Of a stretch of DNA of 45,554 nt, positions 12,803-41,048 are shown piece by piece. The number at the start of each line of letters is the position of its first letter. Position 1 is the first letter of the stretch. The notes below the pieces were generated by a model, which was given only the letters and a program-made list of their open reading frames with translations, made no database searches and was not told the origin of the DNA. Source of the stretch: Desulfobacterales bacterium (lineage in GTDB: Bacteria > Desulfobacterota > Desulfobacteria > Desulfobacterales > UBA2156); the NCBI GenBank assembly GCA_011049715.1, contig DRHF01000335.1:1-45554 (forward strand). Direction: 5' to 3'. A program made the translations under genes and the position numbers.

Positions 12803-12890
12803 TTAACACCTCCTTTTGAAAAATTAATAATAATAACTCCCCCAGGCCGGAGCTAGTGTGGTTAATCGAGCCGCTGCCACGCTCGGCAAG

Positions 12891-13655
12891 CTACTCGTGG
12901 ACCCACTGGCTGCAGAGACCCCCGGTGGTTTCTGCGCCGTCCATGACATAGACGTGGCCAGTGGCAAACGCGGCGTCCTCGGAGGCCAGGAACGCGAACA
13001 GCGCGGCGATCTCCTCGGGTTTCGCGTGCCGCCCCAACGGGATCTTGCGGTTCACCGCGTCCAGCATCGGGTCCGTATACTCGGCGCGCTGCATCGGGGT
13101 GAGCACATACCCGGGAGAGATCGCGTTCACGCGGACAACGGGGGCCAGCTCCAGCGCCATGGACTGGGTCAACGCGATCACGCCTCCCTTGCTGGCGTTG
13201 TAGTCGGCGTAGTGTGGGTACCCGGTGGAACCGCCCGTGGAGGCGGTGTTAAGAATCACGCCGGAGCCCTTGTCCATCATGTGCCGCGCGGCGGTCTGTG
13301 CCGCGTAAAAGACCCCCTTGAGGTTGACGCCCAGCACCTCGTCCCACTCATCTGGCGTGATATCGAGGAAGTCGTGGCGGATGCTGATGCCGGCGTTGTT
13401 GATCAGCACGTCGACCGACCCCATGCGATCAATCGCCTCGGCGAATGCCGCCTGTACCTGTTCCAGGCTCGATACGTCGGCGTCGATCACCCCGGTCAAC
13501 CCCGGCAGCTCCTGGGCAACCCGAGCTTGCGCCTCGGCGCTGTGATCGAGGATGCAAACGGCGCAGCCCTCCTCCAGAAAGCGCGTCGCGGTGGCCTGGC
13601 CTATGCCACTGGCTCCACCGGTCACCAGCACGTTCTTGCCGTTCAAGCCGCGCAT
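12891..13655 (-). CDS. short-chain dehydrogenase/reductase (SDR)
   Basis: A 254-residue classical SDR. It has the TGGASGIG cofactor motif (residues ~11-18), LINNAGIS, the catalytic serine region ILNTAST, and YNASKG with the YxxxK pair. The aspartate after the second strand (ILDHS) suggests NAD preference. The start at 13655 follows GGGAGG; 19 further codons upstream are open but have no better signal. The gene is visibly richer in GC than its neighbours and lies beside an insertion-sequence remnant, so it may have been acquired. It heads the minus-strand transporter operon. The substrate is unknown. Confidence 0.85.
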   Translation of the reverse strand: MRGLNGKNVLVTGGASGIGQATATRFLEEGCAVCILDHSAEAQARVAQELPGLTGVIDADVSSLEQVQAAFAEAIDRMGSVDVLINNAGISIRHDFLDITPDEWDEVLGVNLKGVFYAAQTAARHMMDKGSGVILNTASTGGSTGYPHYADYNASKGGVIALTQSMALELAPVVRVNAISPGYVLTPMQRAEYTDPMLDAVNRKIPLGRHAKPEEIAALFAFLASEDAAFATGHVYVMDGAETTGGLCSQWVHE

Positions 13656-24946: not shown

Positions 24947-25525
24947 TTATCTTAGGCCGTCCTCCATTTTGGCTTCCTCCTTCTTGAGCCCGCCAATACG
25001 GGGATGGGGCCTTCCACAAACGGTGACGACCAGAGCGACCACAATTTCGTCTGCCATCGGAGCATCGTCGATTCTGATCGCCATTGCATCAAAATGAGAC
25101 CGGACAAATGCCGCGTCCTTAAAATTGATCGGCACATCAATCTCGGTTCCCATTCCGCCTATTTTCTTTGCTGAAGGAATCAGGGACTTTCCGCCACCGA
25201 CGGCGTCCCGAAAGGGTTTTCCCAGCTTTGGGTGGAGAATGGCTGCTGCATGTTCCCGCTCTCCGTTTTCCCCGACAATCGCCGCCTTTCCGTAACTTTC
25301 GGCCTTTTCAGGCAAAATACCCAATGCATCCACCGCTCTTTTACCGAGGATGCCCCCCAATACATCTCCGATATCGATCAACGGTGTCAAATCCTCAACA
25401 AATTTTCCTGCACATGGATTTTTTACCACGGCGATGGCGGCTGCTCTTTTGCCTGGGGGCTTCATTTGACGGCCCCCATCCGAGTGGATCTCCTCCAATA
25501 TGGTCACATATTTTCTGATTTCCAT
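24947..25525 (-). CDS. AA_synth ('amino acid synthesis') family protein
   Basis: A 192-residue cytosolic protein matching the family named 'amino acid synthesis' (PF06684), which has no established biochemistry. Recognisable stretches are IRKYVTILEEIHSDGG at the start, AAIAVVKNPCAGKF, the middle AIVGENGEREHAAAILHPKLG and the C-terminal VALVVTVCGRPHPRIGG. The ATG at 25525 is eight bases after GGAGAG. It is the last gene of the pncA-like/ena/hnr operon, 26 bp after the UPF0280 gene. Its repeated placement beside such genes in other bacteria is my recollection and not shown here. Confidence 0.75.
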   Translation of the reverse strand: MEIRKYVTILEEIHSDGGRQMKPPGKRAAAIAVVKNPCAGKFVEDLTPLIDIGDVLGGILGKRAVDALGILPEKAESYGKAAIVGENGEREHAAAILHPKLGKPFRDAVGGGKSLIPSAKKIGGMGTEIDVPINFKDAAFVRSHFDAMAIRIDDAPMADEIVVALVVTVCGRPHPRIGGLKKEEAKMEDGLR

Positions 25526-25551
25526 CAATTATCTCTCCTTTCCGAAATTGG

Positions 25552-26403
25552 TTATTCCACGAGACATTTATGAAAAAAGTCAGTCATGGCGACTTTTCCT
25601 TGAACAGCGACCAATGCCCCGAGAATAATGCCTTTGTTTGTCAACTCTTCTGCCCTTTTGATTGCCCTGGAAATAGACAAAGATTTTTTATCTTCATTTA
25701 AAGGCCCTACTTTTATCGTTACATTGAGTCCGGGAATGTCTGTGTTGGGATCGATCTCCTCTGATGGAACCTGGATTACATGGGGATCCTCTATATAGCT
25801 TGCATTAGCAACGTCTGTGGCCGCCGCATCCGCTAAAGAGGCGTTTCGGGCAATAACAGTGGCTGCCGAAGCGATACCCCTGGTAAGACTCCGGCCCCCC
25901 AAACCGCTCGTGGTCACCCCCCAGGAGGAGGAACGAGAATCGAGGGATAGGACATTGGATATCTCTTGTTTGTCGATTTCCTGTCGTATCCCGACTGTTA
26001 CGGATGCCTCTCTTTCAAGCCTCACAGCCACATCACCGCCATTGTCGACTACCACTTTGGTCATCCCGCGGTTGTAAAGAAAATCAGCAACCGCATCTGC
26101 AATCGTTCCGGCAACCGCAGCCATGGGCGTGAGATTCTGATTTCCAACAGCCTGTACGCTCCGGATCATTTTAATGGCGATCGGATCTTTCAAATCAGCC
26201 GGCATCCTTGGAAACCTTTTACCTAAAAACCGTTTCAGCCGGGCGAGCCGTTCCAGATACGTAAAGGATTCCTCGGCAGCACGGACACTCATCTGTTGCT
26301 GCGGAACCTTCCCCACAAAGGCGGAGATAACCAGCCTCATGGGGCCAAACTCAGCTACAACATCGCCGCCCTCAAGTCGGCTGATCGATTGTTGGTATGG
26401 CAT
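25552..26403 (-). CDS. UPF0280-family (ApbE-like) protein
   Basis: A 283-residue protein of the UPF0280 family, related in fold to ApbE FAD:protein FMN transferases. Seen are KVVVDNGGDVAVRL (about 123-136), the TTSGLGGRS-TRGIASAATVIA region and ADAAATDVANASY, which parallel ApbE's nucleotide/metal site. It lacks a lipoprotein signal, so it is cytosolic. ATG 26403 is the likely start; a TTG at 26412 directly abuts the stop of the reductase gene. Gene position suggests it modifies or assembles the reductase just upstream, for example by placing a flavin. That is inference. Confidence 0.8.
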   Translation of the reverse strand: MPYQQSISRLEGGDVVAEFGPMRLVISAFVGKVPQQQMSVRAAEESFTYLERLARLKRFLGKRFPRMPADLKDPIAIKMIRSVQAVGNQNLTPMAAVAGTIADAVADFLYNRGMTKVVVDNGGDVAVRLEREASVTVGIRQEIDKQEISNVLSLDSRSSSWGVTTSGLGGRSLTRGIASAATVIARNASLADAAATDVANASYIEDPHVIQVPSEEIDPNTDIPGLNVTIKVGPLNEDKKSLSISRAIKRAEELTNKGIILGALVAVQGKVAMTDFFHKCLVE

Positions 26404-26412
26404 CTTTTTCAA

Positions 26413-27933
26413 TCAGTCAACCGCTGCGAGCGGCTCTTTTGCAGTAAACGGCCTCATGGCATGGAGGTGTCCCCCCATTTGCTTGTAATCCTTCAGCTTC
26501 ATGGTGTATTCGATCGGACAAATGGTCGCCGGAGTCGGTGTCCAGTAAAACGCATTAGCCTTGACCCGGCCAACATCGACCATAAAATTGATTCCACCGC
26601 CGGGCAGCACAAAGGTCGGCGCACCACCTACGCTTAGATGGGCGGTCCCCCGATGAACGGCATGGGTCAGTTTTAACGGATAACGTACCACACCGGCCCG
26701 GGCGCTTCCGCCCGTACCTCCGGTATATATACCTGAAACAAGAGAGGGCTCACAGCTGGCGGAGATGGTACTCAACGCCTTTTTGGCCTGATTCGAAAGC
26801 GGTATTTTGCGGAGACTGAAATCCTCGACAATTTCAAACAGGCCGGCGTTTTGACCTGTTGTCTCGGTGATCAGGATGCGCATACCGATTCGGGCGGTAT
26901 TTCGGTCGATTTCAGATATCACATCTAAGGGTTGGATGATGGATGTTCCCCCCCAACCTTCCCCATGGTCGCCAAAGTAGCGGCCCGGGGTGCTCTGCCG
27001 GAATTTCAATTTGATTCCCGAGGGTTTTGCGCCGACAAATCGGCCGGTCGCATGCTCGCTCATCAAACCTGTAAAGTGAGAATCCAGGATAATGACCTCA
27101 TCCGCCGACTCCTGCAAAAGAGGTGCAAAGAGGCCCAAGGTGGCGCTCCCACAGCCCACCCTCATGTTATCCGGTGTTTGACCGTTGATGATCGGCGCCT
27201 GGCCCACTTTCACCTCAATCATACCGCCTTGATCTATTTTCAATCTAACCTCTTTTTTATTGGCGATATCGGTGATAGTTCTGGCCACCAGTAGACCGTC
27301 TTTCCCGGTTAAAAGGTTCACACCGCCGATGGAGATCATCTTGGAGCCGTATTGCTCGGTCACCAGCATTCCAACCTTTCTTTTGCCTACCCGTACAGGC
27401 GCCCCCTCATCTCCAATTCGGATATCTGTATCGATCTTCACCGTAATGCCGCTGTAACTCAGCGGAGCCTCCGTCACCACTGTAACCACATCCACATCCA
27501 TCTGTTTCCCCTTGACGATGACGGGGGCAGGTTTGGCGTCCGGATAAGTCGTTCCGGCGCCTATGGCTGTGATCAGAGGCCGTCGGATTGCTTCCGAAGG
27601 ATCATCCGGCCCCACCACATCCGCCACATCGGTATAGGTGTGAAGCGGGGTGATCCTTTCGAGGCTTTCATTGACATTTTTGTACCGATGGCATGATCCG
27701 ATAAACCCAGGTTTAATCCGGCATCCGATGGGACACGCCTCGCACTGGATTGCCCCGGCGGTGGGTGTTGTTTCACATACCAGAGCTTCCGCTTCGCACA
27801 CCATGATGCATGCACCGCAGTCCGTACATTTTTCATCGATAACCGCTTTTTTCTTGACCAGGCGAACGGCTGCAACCGGACAATCCCTGACGCAAAAGGC
27901 GCAACCGGTACATTTTTTCAGATCAACTTTCAT
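26413..27933 (-). CDS. hnr: 6-hydroxynicotinate reductase-like iron-sulfur protein
   Basis: A 506-residue cytosolic protein. The N-terminus is a two-cluster ferredoxin domain: C8-x2-C11-x2-C14-x3-C18 and C36-x2-C39-x2-C42-x3-C46. A further C63-x2-C66-x3-C70-x9-C80 set may bind another cluster. The remaining ~400 residues match, from memory of the family, 6-hydroxynicotinate reductase of Eubacterium barkeri, which reduces 6-hydroxynicotinate to 1,4,5,6-tetrahydro-6-oxonicotinate with ferredoxin. The enamidase gene 53 bp upstream encodes the next enzyme in that pathway, which strongly supports the call. The reaction in this organism is not proven, and relatives may reduce other N-heterocycles. 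Confidence 0.8.
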   Translation of the reverse strand: MKVDLKKCTGCAFCVRDCPVAAVRLVKKKAVIDEKCTDCGACIMVCEAEALVCETTPTAGAIQCEACPIGCRIKPGFIGSCHRYKNVNESLERITPLHTYTDVADVVGPDDPSEAIRRPLITAIGAGTTYPDAKPAPVIVKGKQMDVDVVTVVTEAPLSYSGITVKIDTDIRIGDEGAPVRVGKRKVGMLVTEQYGSKMISIGGVNLLTGKDGLLVARTITDIANKKEVRLKIDQGGMIEVKVGQAPIINGQTPDNMRVGCGSATLGLFAPLLQESADEVIILDSHFTGLMSEHATGRFVGAKPSGIKLKFRQSTPGRYFGDHGEGWGGTSIIQPLDVISEIDRNTARIGMRILITETTGQNAGLFEIVEDFSLRKIPLSNQAKKALSTISASCEPSLVSGIYTGGTGGSARAGVVRYPLKLTHAVHRGTAHLSVGGAPTFVLPGGGINFMVDVGRVKANAFYWTPTPATICPIEYTMKLKDYKQMGGHLHAMRPFTAKEPLAAVD

Positions 27934-27986: not shown

Positions 27987-29153
27987 CTAATTTTTATACA
28001 CAACTGGTGCGGTCTTGGGTGGCGGCGTATTTCTGCTTTTGGAAACCACGATTTCTCCATCCACCAGGACCACGGCAACCGCAGGGACATCTCCTGCTTC
28101 AATTGCCGCCAGCGCGTCTCTTCCCACAGACCCCATGGGCGTATCCATGATCACCACATCCGCTTCGGATCCTGTCCGGATAAAACCCCGATTGAGTTTA
28201 TACACTCGTGCGGTGTTGCCTGTGGCCATGCAGACGGCCTGTTCCGGTTTGATCGGTGTCAGACCGGCAAGAAGATTCATCACCCGAAGCACCCCCAAAG
28301 GTACAACTCCGGTACCTGAAGGGGCGTCATTTCCAATGATAACCCGATATAATGCCCCATGCTCAGCAATAAGTCGAGCAGCTTCAACCATTATCTTGGG
28401 ATTCCCGCAGTGAACCATTTCAAGAACGATATTCGTTTCAGTGACCAGTTTATTTACTTCTTCAATGGAGACCGCTGTGGGGCCGCCATTGATATGAGAT
28501 GCAATGTCCGGGGCCATTTTGATGACTTCTACCGCCGTGACCGTGCTGGATCCGGGAATTGAAGTTCCCCCGGTGTGCATCATGACCGTCATGCCATATT
28601 TTTTTGCCCATCTAACCATAGGTCCGGCTTCCTCGACCGTCTTGGCGGATCCCAGTCCAATTTCACCCACAATTCTGACACCTTCGGCTGCCATTTCCTG
28701 AAAATCTTCCTCCACCAACCCCTTTTCGAGGATCACAGCGCCCCCTTCCACCTTGGCACCCCCCGGTCTGAAGTTGGCATAAGATTTTGATGCTAAAATG
28801 GCAAGGGCCTTTGTGCCGGCAGGATCTTTGGGTCTTCCCTGAAGGTGAACCTCCCCAGCGGATATGAAGGTCGTGACACCGCCATGAAGTTCGCTTTCGA
28901 GAAATCCGGTTTGATTCTGCCTGGGGGTAAAGTCTCCCAATAATGGATGACAATGGGAATCGATCAGTCCGGGCGTTACAGTTGTTCCCTTGCAATCGAT
29001 GATTACCTGGGCCTTTTTTTCATCCATTTCAACCAAATGTCCCACTTTTTGGATCATACCTTCCTCAATCCATAGCGCATCTGCCTGAAGGATGGGTTCT
29101 TCAATGTTGCCACTCACCAGTCTACCGATGTTTTTGAGTAGCACTTTTGGCAT
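27987..29153 (-). CDS. ena: enamidase-type amidohydrolase
   Basis: A 388-residue amidohydrolase-superfamily enzyme close to E. barkeri enamidase, which opens 1,4,5,6-tetrahydro-6-oxonicotinate to 2-formylglutarate and ammonia. It has the HxH metal pair H67/H69 in GLIDSHCHPLLGDF, the family-typical ELHGGVTTFISAGE segment, MMHTGG and SHINGGP histidines, and IGNDAPSG for the catalytic aspartate. A short beta-sandwich is formed by both termini (LLKNIGRLVSGN; ADVVIMDTP). ATG 29153 is eight bases after AAGGAGG. The genes for nicotinamidase (15 bp gap) and 6-hydroxynicotinate reductase flank it, giving consecutive pathway steps. Confidence 0.85.
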   Translation of the reverse strand: MPKVLLKNIGRLVSGNIEEPILQADALWIEEGMIQKVGHLVEMDEKKAQVIIDCKGTTVTPGLIDSHCHPLLGDFTPRQNQTGFLESELHGGVTTFISAGEVHLQGRPKDPAGTKALAILASKSYANFRPGGAKVEGGAVILEKGLVEEDFQEMAAEGVRIVGEIGLGSAKTVEEAGPMVRWAKKYGMTVMMHTGGTSIPGSSTVTAVEVIKMAPDIASHINGGPTAVSIEEVNKLVTETNIVLEMVHCGNPKIMVEAARLIAEHGALYRVIIGNDAPSGTGVVPLGVLRVMNLLAGLTPIKPEQAVCMATGNTARVYKLNRGFIRTGSEADVVIMDTPMGSVGRDALAAIEAGDVPAVAVVLVDGEIVVSKSRNTPPPKTAPVVYKN

Positions 29154-29171
29154 CACTATACCTCCTTATTC

Positions 29172-29810
29172 TTATCCTTTCGAGATTGTAACGCCCTTTG
29201 ACTCCATTTCCCGGATGGCACTATCGGATGTCTCAGGACTTAAGCCACGACAAAGATCCGCAAGAAGCTCAACCTGATACCCATGCTCTACAGCATGAAA
29301 AACAGTGGCTTTCACGCAGTAATCAGTTGCCAGACCGTAAATGATTAACTTCCTAATTCCATCCCGCCGCAAGAGGCGATCAAGGTCGGTTTTGTTGCCG
29401 CCATCATCAAGAAAACCGGAGTATGAATCAAATTTTGGATTTGTTCCTGTCTCAACTGTCTCAACGGGTCCTTTGATGTTAATCAGAATCTCAGCGCCAG
29501 GGGTGTTCTGGACACAGTGCGGAGGCCACATGACTTGGGTTCGTCCCTCTTCTATCTCAATTTCCTGAAAGGGTTTTGTGCCCGGATTGTTGGTGAAAAA
29601 GCTAACATGGTCCGCTGGATGCCAATCCTTAGTAAAATAAATCGGGAGTCCCTGCTCTTGAAACCGCCGGGTTGCCTTTCCGACCTCGTCAATATATTGA
29701 GCGTCCGCCCCGGGAACAGCCAAAGCGCCGGACTTCAATTCCGTGAAATCCGCCTGAACATCAACGACAATAACGCCGGTATTTTCAATTGAAAACGATT
29801 GTTCTGCCAT
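29172..29810 (-). CDS. nicotinamidase-like isochorismatase-superfamily hydrolase
   Basis: A 212-residue protein, collinear with E. coli-type PncA, which makes nicotinate from nicotinamide. Present are the catalytic aspartate (VVDVQADF), the metal ligands in KDWHPADH, the PPHCVQNT segment and the nucleophile cysteine in GLATDYCVKATV. The catalytic lysine, which in PncA precedes glycine in HKGxNPxxDSYSxF, is replaced by threonine: ETGTNPKFDSYSGF. Activity on nicotinamide is therefore uncertain; a changed substrate or mechanism is possible. ATG 29810 is chosen because GGAGG lies six bases before it, while the ATG two codons upstream touches the GGAGG. It is the first gene of the five-gene operon. 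Confidence 0.82.
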   Translation of the reverse strand: MAEQSFSIENTGVIVVDVQADFTELKSGALAVPGADAQYIDEVGKATRRFQEQGLPIYFTKDWHPADHVSFFTNNPGTKPFQEIEIEEGRTQVMWPPHCVQNTPGAEILINIKGPVETVETGTNPKFDSYSGFLDDGGNKTDLDRLLRRDGIRKLIIYGLATDYCVKATVFHAVEHGYQVELLADLCRGLSPETSDSAIREMESKGVTISKG

Positions 29811-29844
29811 GGGCATCCTCCGTTGTTTTATTACTAAAGTAACG

Positions 29845-29901
29845 TGATAAAAATTCCCTTTGTCGGCTGGAAAGTATAGGGTAACGTGCCTTTTGTGTCA
29901 A
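29845..29901 (-). promoter_or_regulatory. promoter and candidate operator of the nicotinate operon
   Basis: On the minus strand, TTGACA (29901-29896), a 17-bp spacer ending in CCC, then TATACT (29878-29873). About ten bases later, where transcription should begin, lies AAAGGGAATTTTTATCA (29861-29845). The same arrangement and box occur before the Liv operon at 39139-39085. The leader to the ATG would be about 56 nt. Confidence 0.7.
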
Positions 29902-30010: not shown

Positions 30011-30068
30011 TGAGATAGATTGTTCCAATATTTAATACTGCGACTGTTAAGGAAGGGGAAGATAGGTG

Positions 30069-31586: not shown

Positions 31587-31595
31587 GAGGATGGA

Positions 31596-32147
31596 ATGAA
31601 AGGATTGAAAGAGATATGGGGCCTTGTGCTCCCCTATTTTTTGGTAATATCTGTCCCTTGGGTTTTTTCTCATACCGACCCACCGGTGATGACACTTAAG
31701 ATCTATCCTGGCATGCCGACGGTAAGTGAAGAGGCAAAAATAAAGATAAATTTAAGAGGCTCCAATGCCGGCGTTCCTGTCCTAGGTGCTAAAATAAAAA
31801 TCGTTCTAACCGATCGTGATGGCAATCGACTCTATTTTAAGGTAAAACCTGGAGATAATGGGGGAGACTATTTGAGTACAATGGATTTGCCCAGGCCGGG
31901 TATGTGGAAGATGAGGATAGAAGTGAAACATCAAAATGAGTTGGATTTCCGCCACTACATGATACGTGTCATATCGTCTGATTCCGGACCTCAAAAGGTC
32001 ATGAAAGATGAAACCTTTCTCGCAATGGACAAAAAAGATGCGCATCAGCCAATTCCACCTCTATTGGTGGTAGAGGGATATGTCTTCCTCATACTTTTAC
32101 TTCTAGCGACGGTTAGCATTATAAAAAGAATTCAAGTTGGAAAGTAG
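31596..32147 (+). CDS. FixH/YtkA-like membrane-anchored extracytoplasmic protein
   Basis: A 183-residue protein with an N-terminal signal or anchor (LVLPYFLVISVPWVFS), an Ig-like beta domain (about 30-130: PPVMTLKIYPGMPTVSEEAKIKI, LGAKIKIVLTDRDGN, RPGMWKMRIEVKHQ) and a C-terminal membrane helix (VEGYVFLILLLLATVSII). This layout resembles YtkA/FixH-type proteins associated with metal delivery or oxidase assembly. The gene follows the polyferredoxin gene by 9 bp and precedes the cupredoxin-like gene by about 20 bp. A role in metal loading of that complex is inference. Confidence 0.6.
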   Translation: MKGLKEIWGLVLPYFLVISVPWVFSHTDPPVMTLKIYPGMPTVSEEAKIKINLRGSNAGVPVLGAKIKIVLTDRDGNRLYFKVKPGDNGGDYLSTMDLPRPGMWKMRIEVKHQNELDFRHYMIRVISSDSGPQKVMKDETFLAMDKKDAHQPIPPLLVVEGYVFLILLLLATVSIIKRIQVGK

Positions 32148-32167
32148 GTGAAATGGAGGTTTTGTCA

Positions 32168-32542
32168 ATGGCTTCGCGAAAGTTAGGTATGTACACACTG
32201 GTCCTTTCTGTGTTGTTAATGAGCTATCATGGGTGCCGCTTCAAAGAAAAGACCTTTAACATAGAAATCGAAAACCGCAAAGCCAAAGGCGGAATGGAAG
32301 TTATCCAAGTAAAGCAGGGAGAAATGGTAACTCTCTGGTGCACCACCGATGAGACAGCTATAATTCATCTCCATGGTTATAATATTGAGCACGTTGTCAA
32401 ACCGGGGAAATCCACGGTGTTCACTTTTAAAGCTTACGCCACCGGACGGTATCCCATTACCGCGCATAGTTTTGGCGAACCCATCCCCGGGAAACCACAG
32501 GAAGAAACGCCGCTTGTGTATTTGGAAGTGCTGCCACAGTGA
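32168..32542 (+). CDS. cupredoxin-like lipoprotein
   Basis: A 124-residue exported protein. The start at 32168 follows GGAGG by nine bases; an ATG 15 bases earlier is less good. The signal segment ends in a lipobox-like MSYHGC. The mature part has a cupredoxin-like beta fold: MEVIQVKQGEMVTLWCTTDE, IIHLHGYNIEHVVKPGKSTVFTF and GRYPITAHSFGEP. Histidines in HLHGY and TAHSF plus the cysteine in LWC could ligate copper, though the usual C-x-H-x-M loop is not evident. It probably exchanges electrons or metal with the membrane iron-sulfur protein of the same operon (inference). Confidence 0.65.
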   Translation: MASRKLGMYTLVLSVLLMSYHGCRFKEKTFNIEIENRKAKGGMEVIQVKQGEMVTLWCTTDETAIIHLHGYNIEHVVKPGKSTVFTFKAYATGRYPITAHSFGEPIPGKPQEETPLVYLEVLPQ

Positions 32543-32593: not shown

Positions 32594-34126
32594 CTATCCC
32601 ACGGCAGGGGCGGATAGAAGCCAAAGGCCGAACAGTGTGTATCCTACCATGAGTGCGGTCAGCGGGGCCTGACCGATAATTGTGCTCTTGGTACGCGGTG
32701 CCAGTCGGAGGGCCAAGGAATGGGCGATGTAGATTCCCGCTACATGGGCGCCGACGATGATGGTCATCTGAGCATACCAGATCGCTATGACCTGGGATCG
32801 AGCCGAGAGGAAGGAAGTGATGATCGGAATGTCGGCAGTGCCAAACAAATCCCAGCCACGGGCCAGAGGGTCGGAGACCGCTTTCAGGGCATACTGGATG
32901 TCAACAAGGAAGATCGGCAGATAGTGTGCGAAGTGGTAGCCAAAGGCGATGGGCACGACGGAGAGCGCAAACACGCCGAAAACCCGGGCTCCGGCGCCGC
33001 CGATGTCGGAAAGAATTTTTGCTACAGACAGGACCGCCATATACGCAACTGCCAAGGCGGCGAAGACACCGAGCAGTCCTGCTGTATTCGCGATCATCAG
33101 CGTGGTCCTCCCTGGATACTCCAGTGGATTCTCTCCGATCAGCGCCATCCAAAAGAATGTCTTGGACAACCCATCGAACGAGACCGATGATAGAACCAGC
33201 AGGATGAAGACGACACTGCTCAGGGAGCGGGGGCGGACCGACAGGAGGTTCAACCCAGGGAGGGTAATTTCGACCACCCATGAATTCTTATCGCTTGGAG
33301 ATGGGCTGCATTCCGGCTCGCAATGTTTGCGAAGACACCTCGGATTCCGCACCGAAAATGGCGAGAGCCACGAGATAACCCGGAAGAATACAGAAAAAGC
33401 TTCCGCGTATTTAAGCCAGGACCGTTCTCCGAAGAAGAGGATTCCACAGAAGTTGAATACGAGGTAGGAGGAGACCAGATTGGCCAGCACTGCAGGGTCA
33501 GCGGGCGAAGGGTAGATCAGCTCGATCCAGACGAAGACGAGGAAGGCAATCACGGCCGGCCAGTAGGCGGCCCGGCGAGGATATCGGAATGGTGGCTGTT
33601 CCACCCATCGTTTCACACCTGGGAAACGGGCGGCCGCACGGCAGAGACCGCTCCAGGGATTGAGGTACGCCCAGAGATTCCCAAAGAGCAGGTGCAGGTA
33701 GGTAAAACCGATCCACCACACAGTCCAGACGAAGAGGGGGAGGGGGTTGGATAATGGATCGCGGCTTCCCCATTTGCCCGCGAAAATCAGAAACAGGCAC
33801 ACGAAAAGAGAAAGAAAGCTCGGACAGCTCAAGGCCAGCCGACCCTTCCTTCCGAAAGCGCCCAACACGATCAGACGTCGTTGAAGCTGCTCTATCTTAA
33901 CGAACATCGTAGAAGGGATTAGAGATATCAATAGGAACGAGGCCGCCACCACAACGGCCCCTGCGGCCATGTAGAGTTCGGAAGGAAGAAGGAGGATAAA
34001 CCCCTGTCCGCCGGTGTGGGCGCCGGCGGGAGCCGCCATACCGACCAGAAACCCGAGAAGAAGTGGTAACCCCACCGTTGTGCGGGTACGGCCGGACCCA
34101 ATTGGTGAGGGCGTCCTTGCGCTCAC
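32594..34126 (-). CDS. polytopic membrane protein, FedB/'fenitrothion hydrolase'-like, cysteine-poor paralogue of the polyferredoxin
   Basis: A 510-residue membrane protein with a signal peptide (VGLPLLLGFLVGMAAPAGA-HT) and about ten further hydrophobic segments. The GTG at 34126 overlaps the livF stop as GTGA, so translation is coupled; longer frames upstream lie inside livF. From memory it fits the membrane family that includes FedB, reported as a fenitrothion hydrolase: AHTGGQGFILLLP, LWAYLNPW, WPAVIAFLVFVWIELIYP. It also aligns with the protein at 30069-31586: LWAYLNPW against LWCYLCPW, AVSDPLARGWDLFGTA against VVSDPFNWGWNLFGTA, YHFAH against YHLAH. Most cluster cysteines are lost, but C264, C269 and C273 remain where the partner's first soluble cluster site lies. 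Function unknown; linkage to the Liv transporter suggests a substrate-related role. Confidence 0.7.
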   Translation of the reverse strand: MSARTPSPIGSGRTRTTVGLPLLLGFLVGMAAPAGAHTGGQGFILLLPSELYMAAGAVVVAASFLLISLIPSTMFVKIEQLQRRLIVLGAFGRKGRLALSCPSFLSLFVCLFLIFAGKWGSRDPLSNPLPLFVWTVWWIGFTYLHLLFGNLWAYLNPWSGLCRAAARFPGVKRWVEQPPFRYPRRAAYWPAVIAFLVFVWIELIYPSPADPAVLANLVSSYLVFNFCGILFFGERSWLKYAEAFSVFFRVISWLSPFSVRNPRCLRKHCEPECSPSPSDKNSWVVEITLPGLNLLSVRPRSLSSVVFILLVLSSVSFDGLSKTFFWMALIGENPLEYPGRTTLMIANTAGLLGVFAALAVAYMAVLSVAKILSDIGGAGARVFGVFALSVVPIAFGYHFAHYLPIFLVDIQYALKAVSDPLARGWDLFGTADIPIITSFLSARSQVIAIWYAQMTIIVGAHVAGIYIAHSLALRLAPRTKSTIIGQAPLTALMVGYTLFGLWLLSAPAVG

Positions 34127-34827
34127 CGCCTGACTCCGACGTATTTGAACAGAATTTCGGGGGTCGAAGCGAGTTCTGCCGGGGTGGCTTGATGCCGTAT
34201 AGATCCGTTTTCCATCAACGCAACTCTGTCCGCGACTTTTAGGGCCGCATCGATTTTCTGTTCTACGAGAAGAACCCCAACATGACGGGCCTTCAGCGTG
34301 CTGATGGTTTCCAGGAGTTGTTTGACCAATGTCGGCATGAGGCCCTCGCCCGGCTCGTCCATCAACAGCAACCGCGGGGCCGAACAAAGCGCCCTGGCGA
34401 AGGCCAGCATCTGCTGCTCCCCTCCACTCAACGTCCCTGCCTGTTGCCGAAGTCGTTCTTTAAGCACCGGGAAGAGGTCGAGTACCCAGTCTAGGGTTTC
34501 ATTTCCGCTCCTCCTCAATAAGAGCCCAATCCGAAGATTTTCCTCAACGGTGCAGAAGGTGAACAGTCCCCGACCCTGGGGCACGTAGCCGATTCCAAGC
34601 TTGGGGATGTCGTGGGGTCGAAGGGTGGTCAACTCCTGTCCATCAAACTTGATGCTTCCCGATGTCGGTTTAACAAAGCCCATTAGTGTCCTGAGGGTGG
34701 TGGTCTTGCCCGCTCCGTTTCGGCCGAAGAGGCCGAGGATCTCGCCCGGCCTAAGGCTCAATGACACGTCCTTTAGAATGTGAACCTCACCATAGTAACA
34801 GTTGACTCGCTCCATCTCAAGCATCAC
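34123..34827 (-). CDS. livF: branched-chain-type ABC transporter ATP-binding protein LivF (system 1)
   Basis: A 234-residue LivF ATPase. Walker A is FGRNGAGKTT, then the Q-loop GYVPQGRGLF, signature LSGGEQQMLAFARAL, Walker B LLLMDEPGEGL and LLVEQK at the switch position, where LivF proteins carry Gln instead of His. Its ATG overlaps the livG stop (34824-34827) and its stop overlaps the start of the FedB-like gene. It works with LivG to drive import by the LivH/LivM channel. The ligand of such systems ranges from amino acids to amides, urea and aromatic acids. Confidence 0.9.
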   Translation of the reverse strand: MMLEMERVNCYYGEVHILKDVSLSLRPGEILGLFGRNGAGKTTTLRTLMGFVKPTSGSIKFDGQELTTLRPHDIPKLGIGYVPQGRGLFTFCTVEENLRIGLLLRRSGNETLDWVLDLFPVLKERLRQQAGTLSGGEQQMLAFARALCSAPRLLLMDEPGEGLMPTLVKQLLETISTLKARHVGVLLVEQKIDAALKVADRVALMENGSIRHQATPAELASTPEILFKYVGVRR

Positions 34828-35561
34828 AGACCCAAATATGCCTCCTGGACCCGGGCGTCGGCCTCGATTTCATCCGGCGTCCCTACCGCTATAATCGCAC
34901 CCTTGTCCATCACCGTGATCCCGGTTGCGAGTTCTAGCACCACGGGCATGTTGTGTTCGATAAGCAAAATGGTGACCTCCCTGGAGATCTTTCTGATGAG
35001 ATCACAAAAATTGATGATCTCCTCGGGTGCAAGCCCCTGTGTGGGCTCATCGAGGATCAACACCTCCGGTTTGAGGGCCAGTGCCATTGCAACTTCCAAA
35101 AGCCTCTGATGGCCGTATGGCAGCAGCCCCGCTAGCTGATTGCCGACCTGCCCCAGCCCAACCTCTGCCAGCGCCGCCTCGACACCGTCGGAAAGGATCG
35201 CCTCGCGAAGCGTAAGCCGGTCCAAGGCTCGCCGCATCAGCCTCCTTTGTACGGCCAGTGCCACATTTTCATAGACGGTCAGTTTTCGGAAAATGCTGGT
35301 AACCTGGAAGGTGTACACGATCCCGAGAGCCACCCGGTCCCAGGCACGCAGCCTGGTGATGTCCCGGTCTTTGAAGTGCACCTGCCCGGAAGTCGGACTG
35401 ACCCGGCCGCTGATCATACAGACCAGGGTGGTCTTTCCGGCGCCATTGGGTCCGATGATCGCCCTGATTTCCCCCTGATCGAGACGAAATTCCACCGGTT
35501 GAACCGCCTCTAAACCCCCGAACCTCTTGGACAGAGCCGTGGTCTGCAGCAATCGAGTCAT
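34824..35561 (-). CDS. livG: branched-chain-type ABC transporter ATP-binding protein LivG (system 1)
   Basis: A 245-residue LivG ATPase starting MTRLLQTTALSKRFGG. Motifs are Walker A GPNGAGKTT, the LivG-typical ALGIVYTFQVTSIF, a modified signature LLPYGHQRLLEVAMAL, Walker B VLILDEPTQGLAPEE and the switch histidine in LIEHNM. The ATG at 35561 forms an ATGA overlap with the livM stop (35558-35561), which decides the start over ATG codons three and six codons upstream. Normal length for the family. Confidence 0.9.
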   Translation of the reverse strand: MTRLLQTTALSKRFGGLEAVQPVEFRLDQGEIRAIIGPNGAGKTTLVCMISGRVSPTSGQVHFKDRDITRLRAWDRVALGIVYTFQVTSIFRKLTVYENVALAVQRRLMRRALDRLTLREAILSDGVEAALAEVGLGQVGNQLAGLLPYGHQRLLEVAMALALKPEVLILDEPTQGLAPEEIINFCDLIRKISREVTILLIEHNMPVVLELATGITVMDKGAIIAVGTPDEIEADARVQEAYLGL

Positions 35562-36520
35562 GGAAGCCATCTCACCCATCTGGACCGGATCCCTCCAATT
35601 ACCCCGCTTGGGAACCACAGGATCAGAATGATCAGCACGGCCCCCACCGCAAACAGATAACTCGAAGTTAGTCCGCTGGCAATATCGACCACGAAGGCCA
35701 TCACTGCGGTTCCCACGAAAGGGCCGATGGTGGTTCCTGCGCCCCCCAGAAGAGTCCACAAAAGCGGATAGATAGAATAGATGATCGAGGCGAAAGATGA
35801 CCCTACGTATGAAAACGTTAGGGCATACACAGAACCGGCGACGCCCGATAGGCTGCCCGAGATGATCAGGGAGAGCAGCTTGTAATTGAAAGTGTTGTAA
35901 CCGAGCAGGCGGGTACGCTCCTCATTCTCCCTCACCCCCACCAGAATCCTTCCGATCGGGGAGCCGATCAACCAGACGCTCATCATCAGGAATAGCGCGA
36001 ACAACACCAGGGCCAGGTTATACTTGAATACCGGATCGGAAAAGGCTAGCTCCACGGTTCCCAGCCGCAGCGGGCGCAGGCGCCCGGACAGAATGAACCC
36101 CTGATCGCCCATGGTGAATTTGTTGAAATAGAGGGTTGCCAGGTGGAATGCCTGTGAAAACATCATGGTGATGACAAGAAACGAGGCCCCGGTGGTCCGG
36201 AGTGTGATCAGGCCGGTCAGGGTCGACATGAGCACGCTGGCCAGGAGGCCCGCCACGAGGGCTGCCGGAGCGCCGAATCCCAGGTAAAACACGGTCAGCC
36301 CTGTTGTATACATTCCGGATGCGAAAAACATGGCGTGACCTAAGCTCATCAATCCGGTGTAACCTAGGAGCAGGTTGTATCCCATGGTGTAGGTGGTGAG
36401 GATCATGATGCGTGTTACCATGGTCCGATGGAATGGAGGTACGACAAACTGGGCGCCCAGCAGAAGGAGGATAAGCGCGAGATGAACCCCGACAATGGAG
36501 CGCCTGTGGTCGCGCCTCAT
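35558..36520 (-). CDS. livM: branched-chain-type ABC transporter permease LivM (system 1)
   Basis: A 320-residue inner-membrane permease with about nine hydrophobic segments. LivM hallmarks are YNLLLGYTGLMSLGHAMFFASGMY near the N-terminus, the cytoplasmic loop GRILVGVRENEERTRLLGYNTFNYKL that contacts the ATPases, and a late LLGGAGTTIGPFVGTAVM. Its start overlaps the livH stop as ATGA (36517-36520). Confidence 0.9.
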   Translation of the reverse strand: MRRDHRRSIVGVHLALILLLLGAQFVVPPFHRTMVTRIMILTTYTMGYNLLLGYTGLMSLGHAMFFASGMYTTGLTVFYLGFGAPAALVAGLLASVLMSTLTGLITLRTTGASFLVITMMFSQAFHLATLYFNKFTMGDQGFILSGRLRPLRLGTVELAFSDPVFKYNLALVLFALFLMMSVWLIGSPIGRILVGVRENEERTRLLGYNTFNYKLLSLIISGSLSGVAGSVYALTFSYVGSSFASIIYSIYPLLWTLLGGAGTTIGPFVGTAVMAFVVDIASGLTSSYLFAVGAVLIILILWFPSGVIGGIRSRWVRWLP

Positions 36521-37383
36521 GTCTCTTCCACCCCGAAGAGTCCGCCGGTCCTGAAGGATAGAACCAAGGCCACGAGGACCGTGGCAATAATCTTGGCAAG
36601 CGTAGGCGAAAAGAAGACGGACACCACCCCATCACTGATGCCCACCAAAAAGGCGGCGACCATCGTTCCCTTCAAGCTCCCGAGACCGCCGAGAACGACC
36701 ACGATGAAAGACATCAGGAGCGCGTCGAGGCCCATCAAGTAGTGGGCTTGCTGCACCGGGACCACCAAAGCCCCGGCAAGGGCGGTCAGTCCAGCGCCCA
36801 GTGCAAATACCAGCGGGTAGACTCGGTGCACCGGCACACCGAAGGCCTGGGCCATCTCTTGATTTTGCTGGGTGACACGCATGTAAAGGCCCGCTGTGGT
36901 TTTGGTCACCACGAGCCAAGTGGCTAGGAGGAGCATTGCCGAGATTCCGGCGACCACCAGTTTGTAGCCGGAATACCCGAACCAGGGGAAATCAACGCGG
37001 AAATAAAAGGGCGTGGTCACCGACCTCGCGTACGGGCCGTAGACGGTCAGCACCAGCTGCTGAATGATATACAAAAGACCGATTGTGGCGACAATGGTGC
37101 TCTCCGGACTATAATCGATTCGCCGGAGGACCAGGCGATCCGCGAGGTAAGCGATGCCTCCCACAATCAATGGTGCCGCAAGCAAGGCCACAAAATAGCC
37201 GCCGAACATCGTGGAGAAATACCATGCGATCACCGCACCCAGCATAAAGAACTCTCCATGGGCCACGTTTACAATACGCATCACCCCGAAGACCAGGGAG
37301 AGACCCAGGGCTGTGAGGGCCAGCACGAAGCTCGTGACGGTTCCTTCCAGCAGGGCAAGAAATAGATGTCCACCGAAACTCAT
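36517..37383 (-). CDS. livH: branched-chain-type ABC transporter permease LivH (system 1)
   Basis: A 288-residue permease with about eight membrane segments. LivH motifs are GLSLVFGVMRIVNVAHGEFFMLGA, the loop GLYMRVTQQNQEMAQAFGVPVHRVY and VVLGGLGSLKGTMVAAFLVG. It is normal length. The ribosome-binding site is weak, and a 184-bp gap separates it from the binding-protein gene; this gap holds GC-rich potential stems but no clear terminator. Confidence 0.9.
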   Translation of the reverse strand: MSFGGHLFLALLEGTVTSFVLALTALGLSLVFGVMRIVNVAHGEFFMLGAVIAWYFSTMFGGYFVALLAAPLIVGGIAYLADRLVLRRIDYSPESTIVATIGLLYIIQQLVLTVYGPYARSVTTPFYFRVDFPWFGYSGYKLVVAGISAMLLLATWLVVTKTTAGLYMRVTQQNQEMAQAFGVPVHRVYPLVFALGAGLTALAGALVVPVQQAHYLMGLDALLMSFIVVVLGGLGSLKGTMVAAFLVGISDGVVSVFFSPTLAKIIATVLVALVLSFRTGGLFGVEET

Positions 37384-37567
37384 TTGAGTACCCGATCGCC
37401 CGCTGATAGCAATGGAGCCAAAGATCCGGTCACCAAGTTGATCCTTCCACCGCTTGCGGGCGGGGAAGAGAAGCGGTTGGACGCGGGCACCGCCGTAGTG
37501 AAAGGCCGCGCGGCACGGTTCCGAACGGCCTGTAAGGGCCTGGTCATGGAAAAATCCAAATCAGTTC

Positions 37568-38905
37568 TTAGAAAGGCTGCGACCTGTAGTCCGCCTCGGG
37601 CTCGTATAGCGAATCCTCTATCTTGGTTCTGTGAATTACCTTTAGCCGCCGGTTTTCGACCTTCGATATGAACTGCTGGCCAAAGCTTTGATGGATCTGC
37701 CCGACGAATTTCTTGGGGCCCTGCGGATGCTGAATTCCCTCGTTGAATCCTTGAAAGTTTTCCAGGGTCTCGATGAGAGAACGGTAGTCCTTTGGGGTGG
37801 GATCCTTGTAACCGCTTTGTTCTACGGCCTCCTTGATGATAAACAAGGTTTCCCAGCATCCAAACATGTGCGAGTAAGTCGAGACGTCCTTTGGGTCCCC
37901 GAGACTCGCGCCGGCGTCGTTGACGCCCACCCGCTTTCGGTAAAACCGCTCATAGGGTGTGGGATAGCCATCGGCGTATCGCGGCAACGCCTCCCACAAA
38001 TAGGTACCTTCCAGGAACTCGAGCCCCGGGCTGGCGATATCCACCCCTTCCAAGGAGTCAATAAAACCGAAGATCTGGGGCTTCCTCGCGCCGAAGTATT
38101 CGCCCATCTCCTTGACGAAGGTGAGTACCCCAGGCCCTACCATCACATGGTACAACACATCCGTGTCAGCGGGCACCCGTGCGAAATATTTGGTGAAAGA
38201 AGTTTCAGTCGGCGGAATGGCGAGCCGGGCCCGGATGGTGCCGCCAAGCCTGGGAACCGCCTGCCCAAGGAAGTCCCGGTGGTCGTACCCGAAGGCATAG
38301 TCTGGAAAAATCATGGAGACCTTCTTTCCGAGGTTATTGACCATCCAGGATGAGATACCGGTGACTTGTGCGCGGACGTCTGTAATACCGGGCTGGAAAA
38401 CGTAGCGGTTTAGTTTGCCTGAGGCCACATGGTATCCCTCACTCACCACGAAATAGGGGATCTTCAACTCTCCCGCCCTAGGGGCCGACGCCATCACCAC
38501 ATGGGAGAAAAGCGTCCCATAGACAAAATCCACCTTGTGGTGAACGGCGAGTTTCTCCACGACCTCCGCTCCTCTCATCGGATCCGTGCCATCGTCCTCG
38601 GCAATGAGTTGGACGGGTCTTCCGGCGATTCCACCCGTCTCATTGATCAGCTTCACTGCAGCCGTCGTGGTTCGTTCATACCATCGCCCGTAGGCGGCTC
38701 CAATGCCTGTCCTGTGGACCTGGAACCCGATCTTTATCGGTCTCTTTCCCGATGCTGCCCAGGCCGAATTGGCGAGTCCACGGGAAGACTTTCCTAAAGG
38801 CAAAGAAAGGCCGGCAACACCGGCACCCAATAGCGCCCCTGCGGTCTTGAGGGCGCTCCTTCTGGTGATGTTTCGTGATCCCTTGGATTTTTTTCCGTTC
38901 TCCAT
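37568..38905 (-). CDS. Tat-exported periplasmic binding protein of Liv-type ABC transporter (system 1)
   Basis: A 445-residue Peripla_BP_6-type binding protein. The N-terminus carries a twin-arginine signal (NITRRSALKTAGALLGAG), ending near SAWA-ASG, so it is likely exported folded by the Tat system. The mature part begins PIKIGFQVHRTGIGAAYGRW and continues NETGGIAGRPVQLIAEDDGTDP, as in amide/urea/branched-chain binding proteins. First gene of the Liv operon, with a strong promoter about 200 bp upstream. The ligand is unknown; the promoter shared with the nicotinate operon makes a pyridine carboxylate or related amide a candidate (inference). Confidence 0.85.
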   Translation of the reverse strand: MENGKKSKGSRNITRRSALKTAGALLGAGVAGLSLPLGKSSRGLANSAWAASGKRPIKIGFQVHRTGIGAAYGRWYERTTTAAVKLINETGGIAGRPVQLIAEDDGTDPMRGAEVVEKLAVHHKVDFVYGTLFSHVVMASAPRAGELKIPYFVVSEGYHVASGKLNRYVFQPGITDVRAQVTGISSWMVNNLGKKVSMIFPDYAFGYDHRDFLGQAVPRLGGTIRARLAIPPTETSFTKYFARVPADTDVLYHVMVGPGVLTFVKEMGEYFGARKPQIFGFIDSLEGVDIASPGLEFLEGTYLWEALPRYADGYPTPYERFYRKRVGVNDAGASLGDPKDVSTYSHMFGCWETLFIIKEAVEQSGYKDPTPKDYRSLIETLENFQGFNEGIQHPQGPKKFVGQIHQSFGQQFISKVENRRLKVIHRTKIEDSLYEPEADYRSQPF

Positions 38906-39084: not shown

Positions 39085-39139
39085 TGATAAGAATTCCCTT
39101 TTTTAAAGAAAGCATAGGGAAACCCGCTTTGTGTGTCAA
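39085..39139 (-). promoter_or_regulatory. Liv operon promoter sharing an operator with the nicotinate operon
   Basis: On the minus strand, TTGACA (39139-39134), a 17-bp spacer ending in CCC, TATGCT (39116-39111), then AAAGGGAATTCTTATCA (39101-39085) at the expected transcription start. Spacing, spacer (12 of 17 bases the same) and box match the promoter at 29901-29845. The leader to the binding-protein ATG is about 200 nt. Confidence 0.7.
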
Positions 39140-39181: not shown

Positions 39182-40666
39182 CTACACCCAACGTGCCGTG
39201 ATGGTCTTTTCGTCCATGAACATCCTCATGGAGGCCATCCTTGATTTCGCGGTTCCAACAAACGATTCTCTTCTCGACCCCAGGGGAAAGAAAGCGTAGG
39301 GTTGTGCAACGCCCACATTGACTCCCACGTTTCCCACATTCACTTCCCTGATGAATCGGCGTGCATTTTTTCCATTACCGGTCATGATACACGCCGAGTG
39401 TCCCACATTGGTTTTGGTGTTGATCCAGTCGATGGCCTGTTTTAGGCTTTCGCCCCTGATCAACGCTGCCACCGGTCCAAATGCCTCCTCCTTGGCCATC
39501 GGCATGTCAACATTTACATCTTCAATAATGGTCGGCCCAAGGAAGTAGCCGTTCGGGTAGCCCTCCACCTTTACCGATCTGCCATCAAGCACCATCTTCG
39601 CGCCTTCCGACAGGGACCTGTCGATCCATTGTATCACCTTTTCCTTACCGGCCAAGGTGGCCATCGGACCGTTCTCCACGGTATCATCGAGACCATAACC
39701 AAGTTTCATTTTTGCGGAAGCTTCCTTAAATGAGGTTTTTATTTCTTCGTACCTGTCTCCAATAATGACCACATTATCCACGCCCAAACATCGCTGTCCG
39801 GCTAATCCAAAACACGATCTCATCAGCCATTCGGTTCCCATTTCCATATCTGCATCAGGCATAATGACGAGATGATTTTTTCCATTTCCATTGATCGAGG
39901 ATGTCTTCCCCAGTTTTCCGCACATTTCGAAAAGATCCTTGCCTGCTACATTGGACCCGATAAACCCAACTCCTTTGATGTCGGGGTGAGATAAAATTTC
40001 CCTGTTAATCTGTCTGCCCCCGTGGACCAGATTGATTACACCCGGCGGGAAGCCCACTTCCAATGCGACCTTGCAAATGGCTTCTGCAGCCACCGGGTCC
40101 TGCCGGCTTGGGCTGACGACAACCGTACACCCGGCAGCCAGAGCATAGGGAACAAAGGATGACCAGGCATGCATCGGAATGTTCCCGGGTGTGACAATGA
40201 GAAAAGCGCCCAACGGTTCCCAGATGAGATATTGATCGATGCCGCCGGCGAGTTGATCCATATGTTCGTTCTGTTTTGCCAGCCCATACAAAGCCGTGCA
40301 TGCGGATTCAATGTTCTCGATGACCCGCCTGACCGAACCGATGGCTTCTCCGATGGTCCTGCCATGGTCCTGGGATAGAATGCGGGTAAGTTCATCAAAG
40401 TTGTTTTCGAACACGGCGCGCATGTCAAAAAGCATCCGGGCCCTTTCCCGCATCGGCACATTCCGCCATTCCTGAAAGGCCCGGTGTGCTGCTTCGGCTG
40501 CTGCAAGAGCCTCTTTTTTTGTGGCAGAGGGAAATTCTGCGATCACCTCATCTGTCGCCGGATTCGTATCCTGTTGGATGTCGGTCGATTGCGAAACAAT
40601 CCACTCCCCGTCAATAAGGATTTTCAGCTTTCCGTAATGCTTTTTCACTTCAGGTAACAACGGCAT
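39182..40666 (-). CDS. mmsA: methylmalonate-semialdehyde dehydrogenase-type (MmsA-like) CoA-acylating aldehyde dehydrogenase
   Basis: A 494-residue ALDH-superfamily enzyme. MmsA enzymes convert 2-substituted 3-oxopropanoates plus CoA and NAD to acyl-CoA and CO2. Seen are TPGNIPMHAW with the catalytic asparagine, INGNGKNHLVIMPDAD, FGLAGQRCLGV with nucleophile cysteine near 287, and EEAFGPV. The arginine in GSVRRVIENIE and the one before the cysteine match MmsA-specific positions. The lysine of the usual KPSE cofactor motif is replaced: VVVSPSRQDP. That suggests altered NAD binding or CoA specificity. It is monocistronic or at the head of a transcript. Besides malonate or methylmalonate semialdehyde, 2-formylglutarate is a chemically suitable substrate. 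Confidence 0.82.
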   Translation of the reverse strand: MPLLPEVKKHYGKLKILIDGEWIVSQSTDIQQDTNPATDEVIAEFPSATKKEALAAAEAAHRAFQEWRNVPMRERARMLFDMRAVFENNFDELTRILSQDHGRTIGEAIGSVRRVIENIESACTALYGLAKQNEHMDQLAGGIDQYLIWEPLGAFLIVTPGNIPMHAWSSFVPYALAAGCTVVVSPSRQDPVAAEAICKVALEVGFPPGVINLVHGGRQINREILSHPDIKGVGFIGSNVAGKDLFEMCGKLGKTSSINGNGKNHLVIMPDADMEMGTEWLMRSCFGLAGQRCLGVDNVVIIGDRYEEIKTSFKEASAKMKLGYGLDDTVENGPMATLAGKEKVIQWIDRSLSEGAKMVLDGRSVKVEGYPNGYFLGPTIIEDVNVDMPMAKEEAFGPVAALIRGESLKQAIDWINTKTNVGHSACIMTGNGKNARRFIREVNVGNVGVNVGVAQPYAFFPLGSRRESFVGTAKSRMASMRMFMDEKTITARWV

Positions 40667-40973
40667 GATATTCTCCTTTGTTCATTCTTTATTTTCAATT
40701 GAATATGGCTTTCGGCGATCTGTCCTGCACAGAAATCCGGCTTGTTCAGGCGTTAAAAAGAGAAAAAGACCTGGCATTTATATTCTGTTCCATGCATTTA
40801 ATGATTTTGGTCTGCAATAAACCATTCATCTTGTCAAGGGAAGAATAAAGCGGGGAAAAAGATATTTTTCAGGATACTTTTTGCTTGGACTTCAACCACA
40901 TCACCTTTATGGTCTCTATTTTAACAAAATTAGGTTCAAAATTGGTGATTTCAGGAATGCGCACATATTTTTC

Positions 40974-41002
40974 TTGACCTTGAAAACGGATCAAATTATA
41001 TC
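40974..41002 (+). promoter_or_regulatory. promoter of the second Liv-type binding-protein gene (in 382-bp gene-free stretch)
   Basis: The divergent intergenic stretch 40667-41048 contains TTGACC (40974-40979), a 17-bp spacer and TATATC (40997-41002), 47 bp before the ATG at 41049. A TTGACA is also present on the minus strand (40837-40832) toward the mmsA-like gene, but without a good -10 box. No operator is recognised. Confidence 0.55.
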
Positions 41003-41048
41003 TTTCTATCCAGATCTTAAGTTTTAACCATAAAATGAAGGAGGAGTT

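Follow-up and report, generated by a model that had tools for sequence, protein, structure and literature searches.

Nicotinate supports the growth of some anaerobes, sulfate reducers among them, and two described ways of degrading it come close to the locus analysed here. One is the fermentation of nicotinate by Eubacterium barkeri, in which, as Alhapel reportedly set out in 2006, the enzymes Ndh, Hnr, Ena, Hgd, Hmd, Mgm, Mii and Dmd lead to pyruvate and propionate. The other is the aerobic reductive nicotinate pathway of Azorhizobium caulinodans, which is said to go back to work by Kitts in 1992. A reductive route through glutarate is known in Azorhizobium (PMC3511419, PMC9304392). A third system concerns the enzyme itself: the MmsA/IolA/ALDH6A1 group of methylmalonate-semialdehyde dehydrogenases (MMSDHs), represented by the model TIGR01722.

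The locus lies in a stretch of 45,554 nucleotides from a Desulfobacterales bacterium, called the window below. It shares its first steps with E. barkeri, namely those of a hydroxylase, 6-hydroxynicotinate reductase (Hnr) and enamidase (Ena), and differs in what follows: there a longer branch leads to pyruvate and propionate, whereas here we propose a single CoA-acylating, decarboxylating oxidation to glutaryl-CoA. With Azorhizobium caulinodans and the Bradyrhizobiaceae it has in common the reduction, the hydrolytic ring opening, an exit through glutarate or glutaryl-CoA, and two conserved proteins of unknown function. Their clusters are described for the first three steps only, and the downstream steps run through free glutarate, with no gene assigned to them in that description (PMC3511419). 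The dehydrogenase of our locus resembles MmsA, IolA and ALDH6A1 in its fold, its catalytic Cys, its two Arg residues and its missing hydrolytic Glu, and the same chemistry would be expected of it. It departs from them in scoring below the TIGR01722 cut-off, in tunnel residues that are altered in every member of its clade, and in sitting with nicotinate genes.

No paper joining MmsA to nicotinate was found in the open-licence literature, and for this reason the proposal counts as new; what it offers is a known enzyme chemistry placed at a new point of a known pathway. The same literature yielded no assignment of genes acting after ring opening outside E. barkeri. In the plasmid stretches L177-L179, the aerobic Ena/Hnr cluster of Sulfitobacter carries an acyl-CoA ligase and beta-oxidation genes, and Ena homologues of Mesorhizobium and Mariluticola have SSADH-type dehydrogenases nearby. 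There is no MmsA annotation in these stretches.

The dehydrogenase and its surroundings in the window

A preliminary description of this DNA had placed an MmsA-type dehydrogenase at 39182-40666. The interval holds a real and single long ORF, read on the minus strand (which that description left unstated) from 40666 to 39182, with an ATG start and 494 amino acids. A profile search assigns the protein to the aldehyde dehydrogenase family (PF00171, 377.6 bits), and its best specific NCBIfam model is TIGR01722 (MMSDH), at 385.8 bits and thus short of the cut-off of 448.5. Ten further members of its clade, called clade A, were scored with the same model; nine gave 338.6-399.6 bits and one had no row at E 1e-100. 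The cut-off was passed by 3/5 of the sequences scored from clade B, a second MmsA lineage, and by 4/4 of the MmsA sequences scored that are unlinked to nicotinate genes.

MMSDHs rank first in a PDB sequence search (5tjr, 8xxq, 1t90), and when the AlphaFold model of the dehydrogenase (pLDDT 90.2) was compared with known structures in Foldseek, all of the top 24 matches were MMSDH/ALDH6A1 entries. The closest structures, 9q0d, 1t90 and 8xxq, have a TM score of about 0.95 and an identity of 31-34%. The modelled fold of the dehydrogenase is the ALDH6-like CoA-acylating one, with MMSDHs as its nearest structures. The source genome (5.38 Mb in 461 contigs, 94.8% complete) was found to hold no second MmsA, since the next best match to the dehydrogenase is only 27% identical.

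The protein reads SPSR where common MMSDHs have KPSx, and the preliminary description had taken the missing lysine of the KPSE motif as a difference from housekeeping MmsA. The motif was read correctly, but it is not a defining mark of the group. Of 81 clade-A sequences, 67 have Ser at this position, 8 keep Lys and 6 have Ala, so loss of the lysine is frequent in the clade without defining it.

Features of the window, with their coordinates and the evidence for each
Feature	Position	Strand	Evidence
Divergent MmsA-like (ALDH6-like, clade A) dehydrogenase; putative 2-formylglutarate dehydrogenase (CoA-acylating, decarboxylating)	39182..40666	-	domain, fold, tree, residues, linkage
Nicotinamidase-like (pncA), gene 1 of the nicotinate operon	29172..29816	-	NF008623, 173.8 bits against a cut-off of 174
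Enamidase (ena)	27987..29156	-	only PDB sequence match at 1e-5 is the enamidase 2vun, 502.9 bits
6-hydroxynicotinate reductase-like (hnr)	26413..27933	-	N-terminal ferredoxin domain; gene order Hnr-UPF0280-AA_synth as in annotated plasmid records
UPF0280 (ApbE-like), conserved behind hnr	25552..26412	-	profile matches; neighbourhoods
AA_synth (PF06684) protein, a conserved member of the nicotinate cluster	24947..25528	-	profile match; neighbourhoods
Sigma70-like promoter element upstream of pncA-ena-hnr	29870..29901	-	one of two genome matches
Same promoter element upstream of livK, just downstream of the dehydrogenase gene	39108..39139	-	the other genome match
Liv-type ABC transporter operon (livK, H, M, G, F), candidate uptake system	34123..38905	-	ORFs; promoter element

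The dehydrogenase gene had been described as lying directly upstream of the Liv operon, and it does: 276 bp separate its end from the livK start, on the same strand. The nicotinate-type promoter said to be shared by that operon was also recovered. The pattern TTGACAC-N13-CCCTATRCTTTC has exactly two matches in the 5.38-Mb genome, one preceding pncA-ena-hnr and the other preceding livK, and the reversed pattern, used as a control, has 0. The dehydrogenase was said to have no such promoter of its own, and none was found upstream of it in 40667-41048. Within the window, then, two facts count against a role in the pathway: the dehydrogenase stands 9.4 kb from pncA-ena-hnr, on the same strand, and it is without that operon's promoter. 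The Liv genes of the window are not close to the Liv genes of other nicotinate clusters. By eye, an imperfect CCCT/AGGG inverted repeat can be seen across the -10 region of the promoter element, and it may be an operator.

Several neighbours of these genes deserve mention. On plasmids of Comamonadaceae and Sulfitobacter, 6-hydroxynicotinate reductase, UPF0280, an amino acid synthesis family protein and an amidohydrolase are annotated adjacently. UPF0280, a weak ApbE-like match, is found behind hnr in most of the clusters seen; because the Hnr of E. barkeri reportedly carries a covalent flavin, UPF0280 may be the flavin transferase of Hnr. The AA_synth protein is among the best conserved cluster members, with up to 87% identity, and has a solved, uncharacterised relative (2qtp). 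Divergent from the nicotinate operon are NapH/YtkA-like membrane Fe-S genes (30066-32542, plus strand), and a 597-aa ORF with a TTG start and no family match occupies 32594-34387 on the minus strand. These genes and this ORF could possibly serve electron transfer in the nicotinate pathway.

Linkage to nicotinate genes in relatives

When 84,980 species genomes were scanned, 262 relatives of the dehydrogenase came to light. The best 80 of 262, which are 57 to 80% identical to it, were analysed with their neighbourhoods, so the sample of loci leans to near relatives. Hosts of these best 80 include Desulfobacterota, Bacillota and one Armatimonadota record; NaphS2, Desulfocarbo indianensis and Dethiosulfatarculus sandiegensis are culturable clade-A strains. 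The recurrent neighbours are a regulator, TRAP or Liv transporters, three hydroxylase subunits, Ena, Hnr, UPF0280, AA_synth and PncA. One or more nicotinate genes were found at 68/80 of the loci, and the nearest of them is on the same strand in all 68. Ena is present at 56 of the best 80 loci, Hnr at 48 and the hydroxylase large subunit at 55. The other 12/80 loci show none, and each of them is cut by a contig end no more than 3 kb away on one side or both. Where at least 5 kb could be seen on each side, nicotinate genes are present in 37/37 and Ena or Hnr in 35/37. As a control, a few kilobases were fetched around each of 20 unlinked MmsA genes, and nicotinate genes were found in 0/20. In Bacillota clusters L019, L024, L025, L030 and L040 the hydroxylase large subunit is split into two ORFs, like the nicotinate dehydrogenase of E. 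barkeri (3hrd).

The same association was seen in genome content. Among 395 genomes sampled evenly from the phylum, Ena (called at E <=1e-60) is present in 60. Scores of the dehydrogenase over these genomes are bimodal, with 38 genomes at 58% identity or more, which are clade A, and the next at 44% or less. Both clade A and Ena occur in 37 genomes, clade A only in 1, Ena only in 23 and neither in 334 (Fisher P = 5.5e-35, a value that overstates independence because the genomes are related, although the pattern still covers many families). The sole clade-A genome with no Ena match, G200, has the gene on a 6.8-kb contig where it adjoins an AA_synth gene.

The preliminary description had drawn the link to nicotinate from weak local signs. 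Its suggestion that the phylogeny be set against the presence of hnr and ena was borne out by the 37/38 clade-A genomes with enamidase, and the decisive evidence is operon membership in relatives, which makes the link much stronger there than in the window.

Two MmsA lineages in one operon slot

The 23 genomes with Ena and no clade A turned out to be informative. In 11 of them another MmsA, 34 to 40% identical, lies within 20 kb of Ena, and these are linked clade-B genes. Two more were assigned to clade B by other evidence: in G140 a clade-B MmsA adjoins the hydroxylase, and in G094 one adjoins the regulator and DctM. Altogether 13 genomes without clade A have a clade-B MmsA in the nicotinate operon slot. 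Among the 10 others, G035 and G198 have only ENA-like proteins of 45-49%, the loci of G113, G319, G355 and G358 are cut at contig ends, and in G115 a 5.4-kb contig shows no MmsA. G114, G175 and G241, where the neighbourhood is in view and Ena has no linked MmsA, are true exceptions. None of the 395 genomes has clade A together with a linked clade B.

The usual gene order is the same for both lineages: DctP-Q-M, MmsA, hydroxylase S-F-L, Ena, Hnr, UPF0280 and AA_synth. In an MmsA tree built with 22 of the 80 clade-A loci and the window sequence, A (SH-aLRT 100) and B (99) are separate clades, and B is nearer to the unlinked MmsAs (88). The preliminary description had named clustering with MmsAs of genomes lacking these genes as an outcome that would speak against it; clade A instead stands apart from the unlinked sequences. 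In an Ena tree of 53 A-type and 12 B-type operons, 7 changes are needed to place the B label, well-supported branches force no fewer than 6 of them, and a single clade of B-operon Enas is rejected (p-AU 1.3e-74). The pair L007 (A) and L111 (B) illustrates this: identity is 85% for DctP, 87% for DctM, 79% for XDHS, 82% for Ena, 80% for Hnr and 89% for AA_synth, and 39% for MmsA.

The Ena phylogeny shows that A and B were swapped repeatedly. That two lineages have traded places in one slot strongly indicates that the pathway requires an MmsA-type reaction. Repeated swaps of two non-orthologous versions in one slot also amount to a clean natural experiment on enzyme recruitment.

Upstream hydroxylase and probable fate of the product

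The nicotinate hydroxylase of the source genome was found on a separate contig, C324. The best PDB match of its large subunit is nicotinate dehydrogenase (3hrd), and the subunit is up to 68% identical to hydroxylases of the nicotinate operons found in relatives. The C324 operon (locus L110, positions 7182-13362) holds together the hydroxylase, a gene like glutaryl-CoA dehydrogenase (GCDH) and a CaiB-type CoA-transferase. The GCDH-like gene, an acyl-CoA dehydrogenase, follows the hydroxylase genes; its best PDB match is the GCDH 3mpi at 338 bits, with the next at 285, and it is under the family cut-off (406 against 470). Its close homologues in 12 other genomes are not beside a hydroxylase. Because of this and of its score, the gene is taken as support and not as proof. 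The best PDB match of the transferase is 9br6, a succinate-hydroxymethylglutarate CoA-transferase. The gene content of the genome points to glutaryl-CoA as the probable exit of the pathway, and the C324 transferase would equally suit free glutarate.

A full-scoring GCDH is present elsewhere in the source genome, on contig C94 (NF045552, 752 bits against a cut-off of 470), as the preliminary description had suggested looking for. Feeding of the product into respiration may not be a trait of all hosts. A GCDH above the NF045552 cut-off was found in 20/60 Ena genomes against 66/335 of the others, a weak difference (P = 0.017). At a loose threshold, which admits other acyl-CoA dehydrogenases, the counts are 37/60 and 86/335 (P = 1e-7). 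With a full-scoring GCDH in only 20/60, other Ena hosts may use different acyl-CoA dehydrogenases or excrete a product.

Active site and alternative explanations

Cys293, Asn162, Arg114 and Arg292 are invariant in 81/81 clade-A, 12/12 clade-B and 18/18 unlinked (C) sequences. Position 259, the counterpart of the hydrolytic Glu of ALDH2 (E268), carries Asn in 81/81 of A and Gln in 12/12 of B; the unlinked sequences have Gln or Leu there. R114 and R292 correspond to the two Arg residues that, as work on B. subtilis MSDH reportedly showed, bind the departing carboxylate in MMSDH. Given the retained Cys and Arg pair and the absent hydrolytic Glu, the MMSDH mechanism with CoA as acceptor would be expected for the dehydrogenase.

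Tunnel positions were assigned through the Asn, Cys and PFGG anchors, which we assume map onto the ALDH2 substrate tunnel. Where the unlinked set has F163, M166, W170 and F462, 81/81 of clade A have I, H, S and L, respectively, and position 283 of clade A is R in 71 and Q in 10. Clade B has Y170 and V462 where the unlinked set has W170 and F462. Common to A and B and unlike the unlinked set are H423, C285 (79/81 of A) and a residue at 465 that is basic. The residue counts leave out L149 and L150, two divergent members of the unlinked set that were checked separately: in both of them 423 is N and 465 is neither Arg nor Lys, L150 has C285 and L149 has K114. At 90% conservation, 2 columns unite A with B and set them apart from the unlinked set, against 6 that unite A with the unlinked set and 10 that unite B with it; with so few such columns, the agreement of A and B at 423, 465 and 285 suggests convergence and is not statistically special. 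The tunnel changes in both clades fit a pocket that takes up a longer side chain with a negative charge, which is compatibility and not proof.

The main alternative is a route through free glutarate as in Azorhizobium. Here 2-formylglutarate would lose CO2, spontaneously or by another enzyme, to give glutarate semialdehyde, which a dehydrogenase would oxidise to glutarate before a CoA-transferase made glutaryl-CoA. A. caulinodans is described as going via glutarate (PMC3511419), a CaiB-type transferase with 9br6 as its best PDB match stands in the C324 hydroxylase operon, and Mesorhizobium and Mariluticola have ALDHs of the SSADH type close to their ENA homologues. On the succinate-glutarate model, however, the C324 transferase reaches 249.7 against a cut-off of 750, and the replaced Glu with both Arg invariant is the pattern of an MMSDH and not of a hydrolytic enzyme. 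Four comparison ALDHs, two SSADHs near aerobic Ena homologues and two from the source genome, all carry the hydrolytic Glu (4/4), and none of the 4 has both Arg of the R114/R292 pair, which disfavours a hydrolytic SSADH-type enzyme at this step. We regard the free-glutarate route as unlikely, while giving it more weight than the readings that follow.

Beta-aldehydo acids decarboxylate readily, and 2-formylglutarate is one. Glutarate semialdehyde formed in this way, without an enzyme, might be the true substrate, in which case the dehydrogenase would still be CoA-acylating and would still give glutaryl-CoA. Against this, none of the 93 sequences linked to nicotinate (81 A, 12 B) departs from R114 and R292, and this substrate seems quite improbable.

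Family resemblance, and a place outside the nicotinate operon in the window, could suggest a housekeeping MmsA of valine, inositol or beta-alanine catabolism that neighbours nicotinate genes by chance. The separate clade, the near-obligate co-occurrence and linkage with ENA, and the empty unlinked control loci rule this out on grounds of phylogeny and linkage, and little chance is left to it. That the E. barkeri branch through hydroxymethylglutarate, methyleneglutarate and dimethylmalate is in use, with the MmsA-like enzyme detoxifying aldehydes, has in its favour that the window Ena belongs to the same type as that of E. barkeri, but it is hardly credible: PF04303 (PrpF/methylitaconate isomerase, Mii), the branch member searched for, has 0 matches in the source genome and is absent from 52/60 Ena genomes, and none of the recurrent families around the 80 clade-A loci (best 80 of 262) was recognised as a branch enzyme.

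Proposed pathway and its meaning

The dehydrogenase probably catalyses the fourth step of a reductive nicotinate pathway in anaerobes, where it would convert 2-formylglutarate, CoA and NAD(P)+ to glutaryl-CoA and CO2. What the analysis shows is the fold, the residues, the linkage of the genes, the replacement by a second MmsA clade and the content of the genome, while the substrate, product, cofactor and step order are inferred. The molybdenum hydroxylase of C324 would hydroxylate nicotinate, Hnr would reduce the product, and Ena would open the ring to 2-formylglutarate. On the MmsA-like enzyme a thiohemiacetal would form on Cys293 and pass its hydride to NAD(P)+. The original nicotinate carboxyl, held by Arg114 and Arg292, would be lost as CO2, and the acyl group would be handed to CoA. 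Glutaryl-CoA dehydrogenase and beta-oxidation would take the resulting glutaryl-CoA to acetyl-CoA. A single MmsA-type step would in this way stand in for the Hgd-Hmd-Mgm-Mii-Dmd branch of Eubacterium barkeri. The preliminary description had reasoned that MmsA chemistry with R = CH2CH2COOH gives glutaryl-CoA, which is correct as written, and its reading of a shortcut from 2-formylglutarate to glutaryl-CoA is supported here, with the reaction itself still put forward conditionally.

A wider reading is held with somewhat less confidence, though we lean towards it. It describes an uncharacterised anaerobic nicotinate pathway whose fourth step belongs to a dedicated 2-formylglutarate dehydrogenase (CoA-acylating, decarboxylating), recruited from MmsA twice, as A and as B. 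The two recruits would now be alike in H423, in having a basic side chain at 465 and in their widened tunnel, would have replaced each other several times in conserved operons, and would deliver the carbon of nicotinate as an activated thioester.

If this is true, the clusters of Desulfobacterota, Bacillota and Armatimonadota would be explained together, and the thioester exit would save the CoA-activation step of the aerobic nicotinate route. Annotators could swap the label 'methylmalonate-semialdehyde dehydrogenase' for a testable function. A single CoA-acylating enzyme would connect nicotinate to the glutaryl-CoA/benzoyl-CoA trunk pathway.
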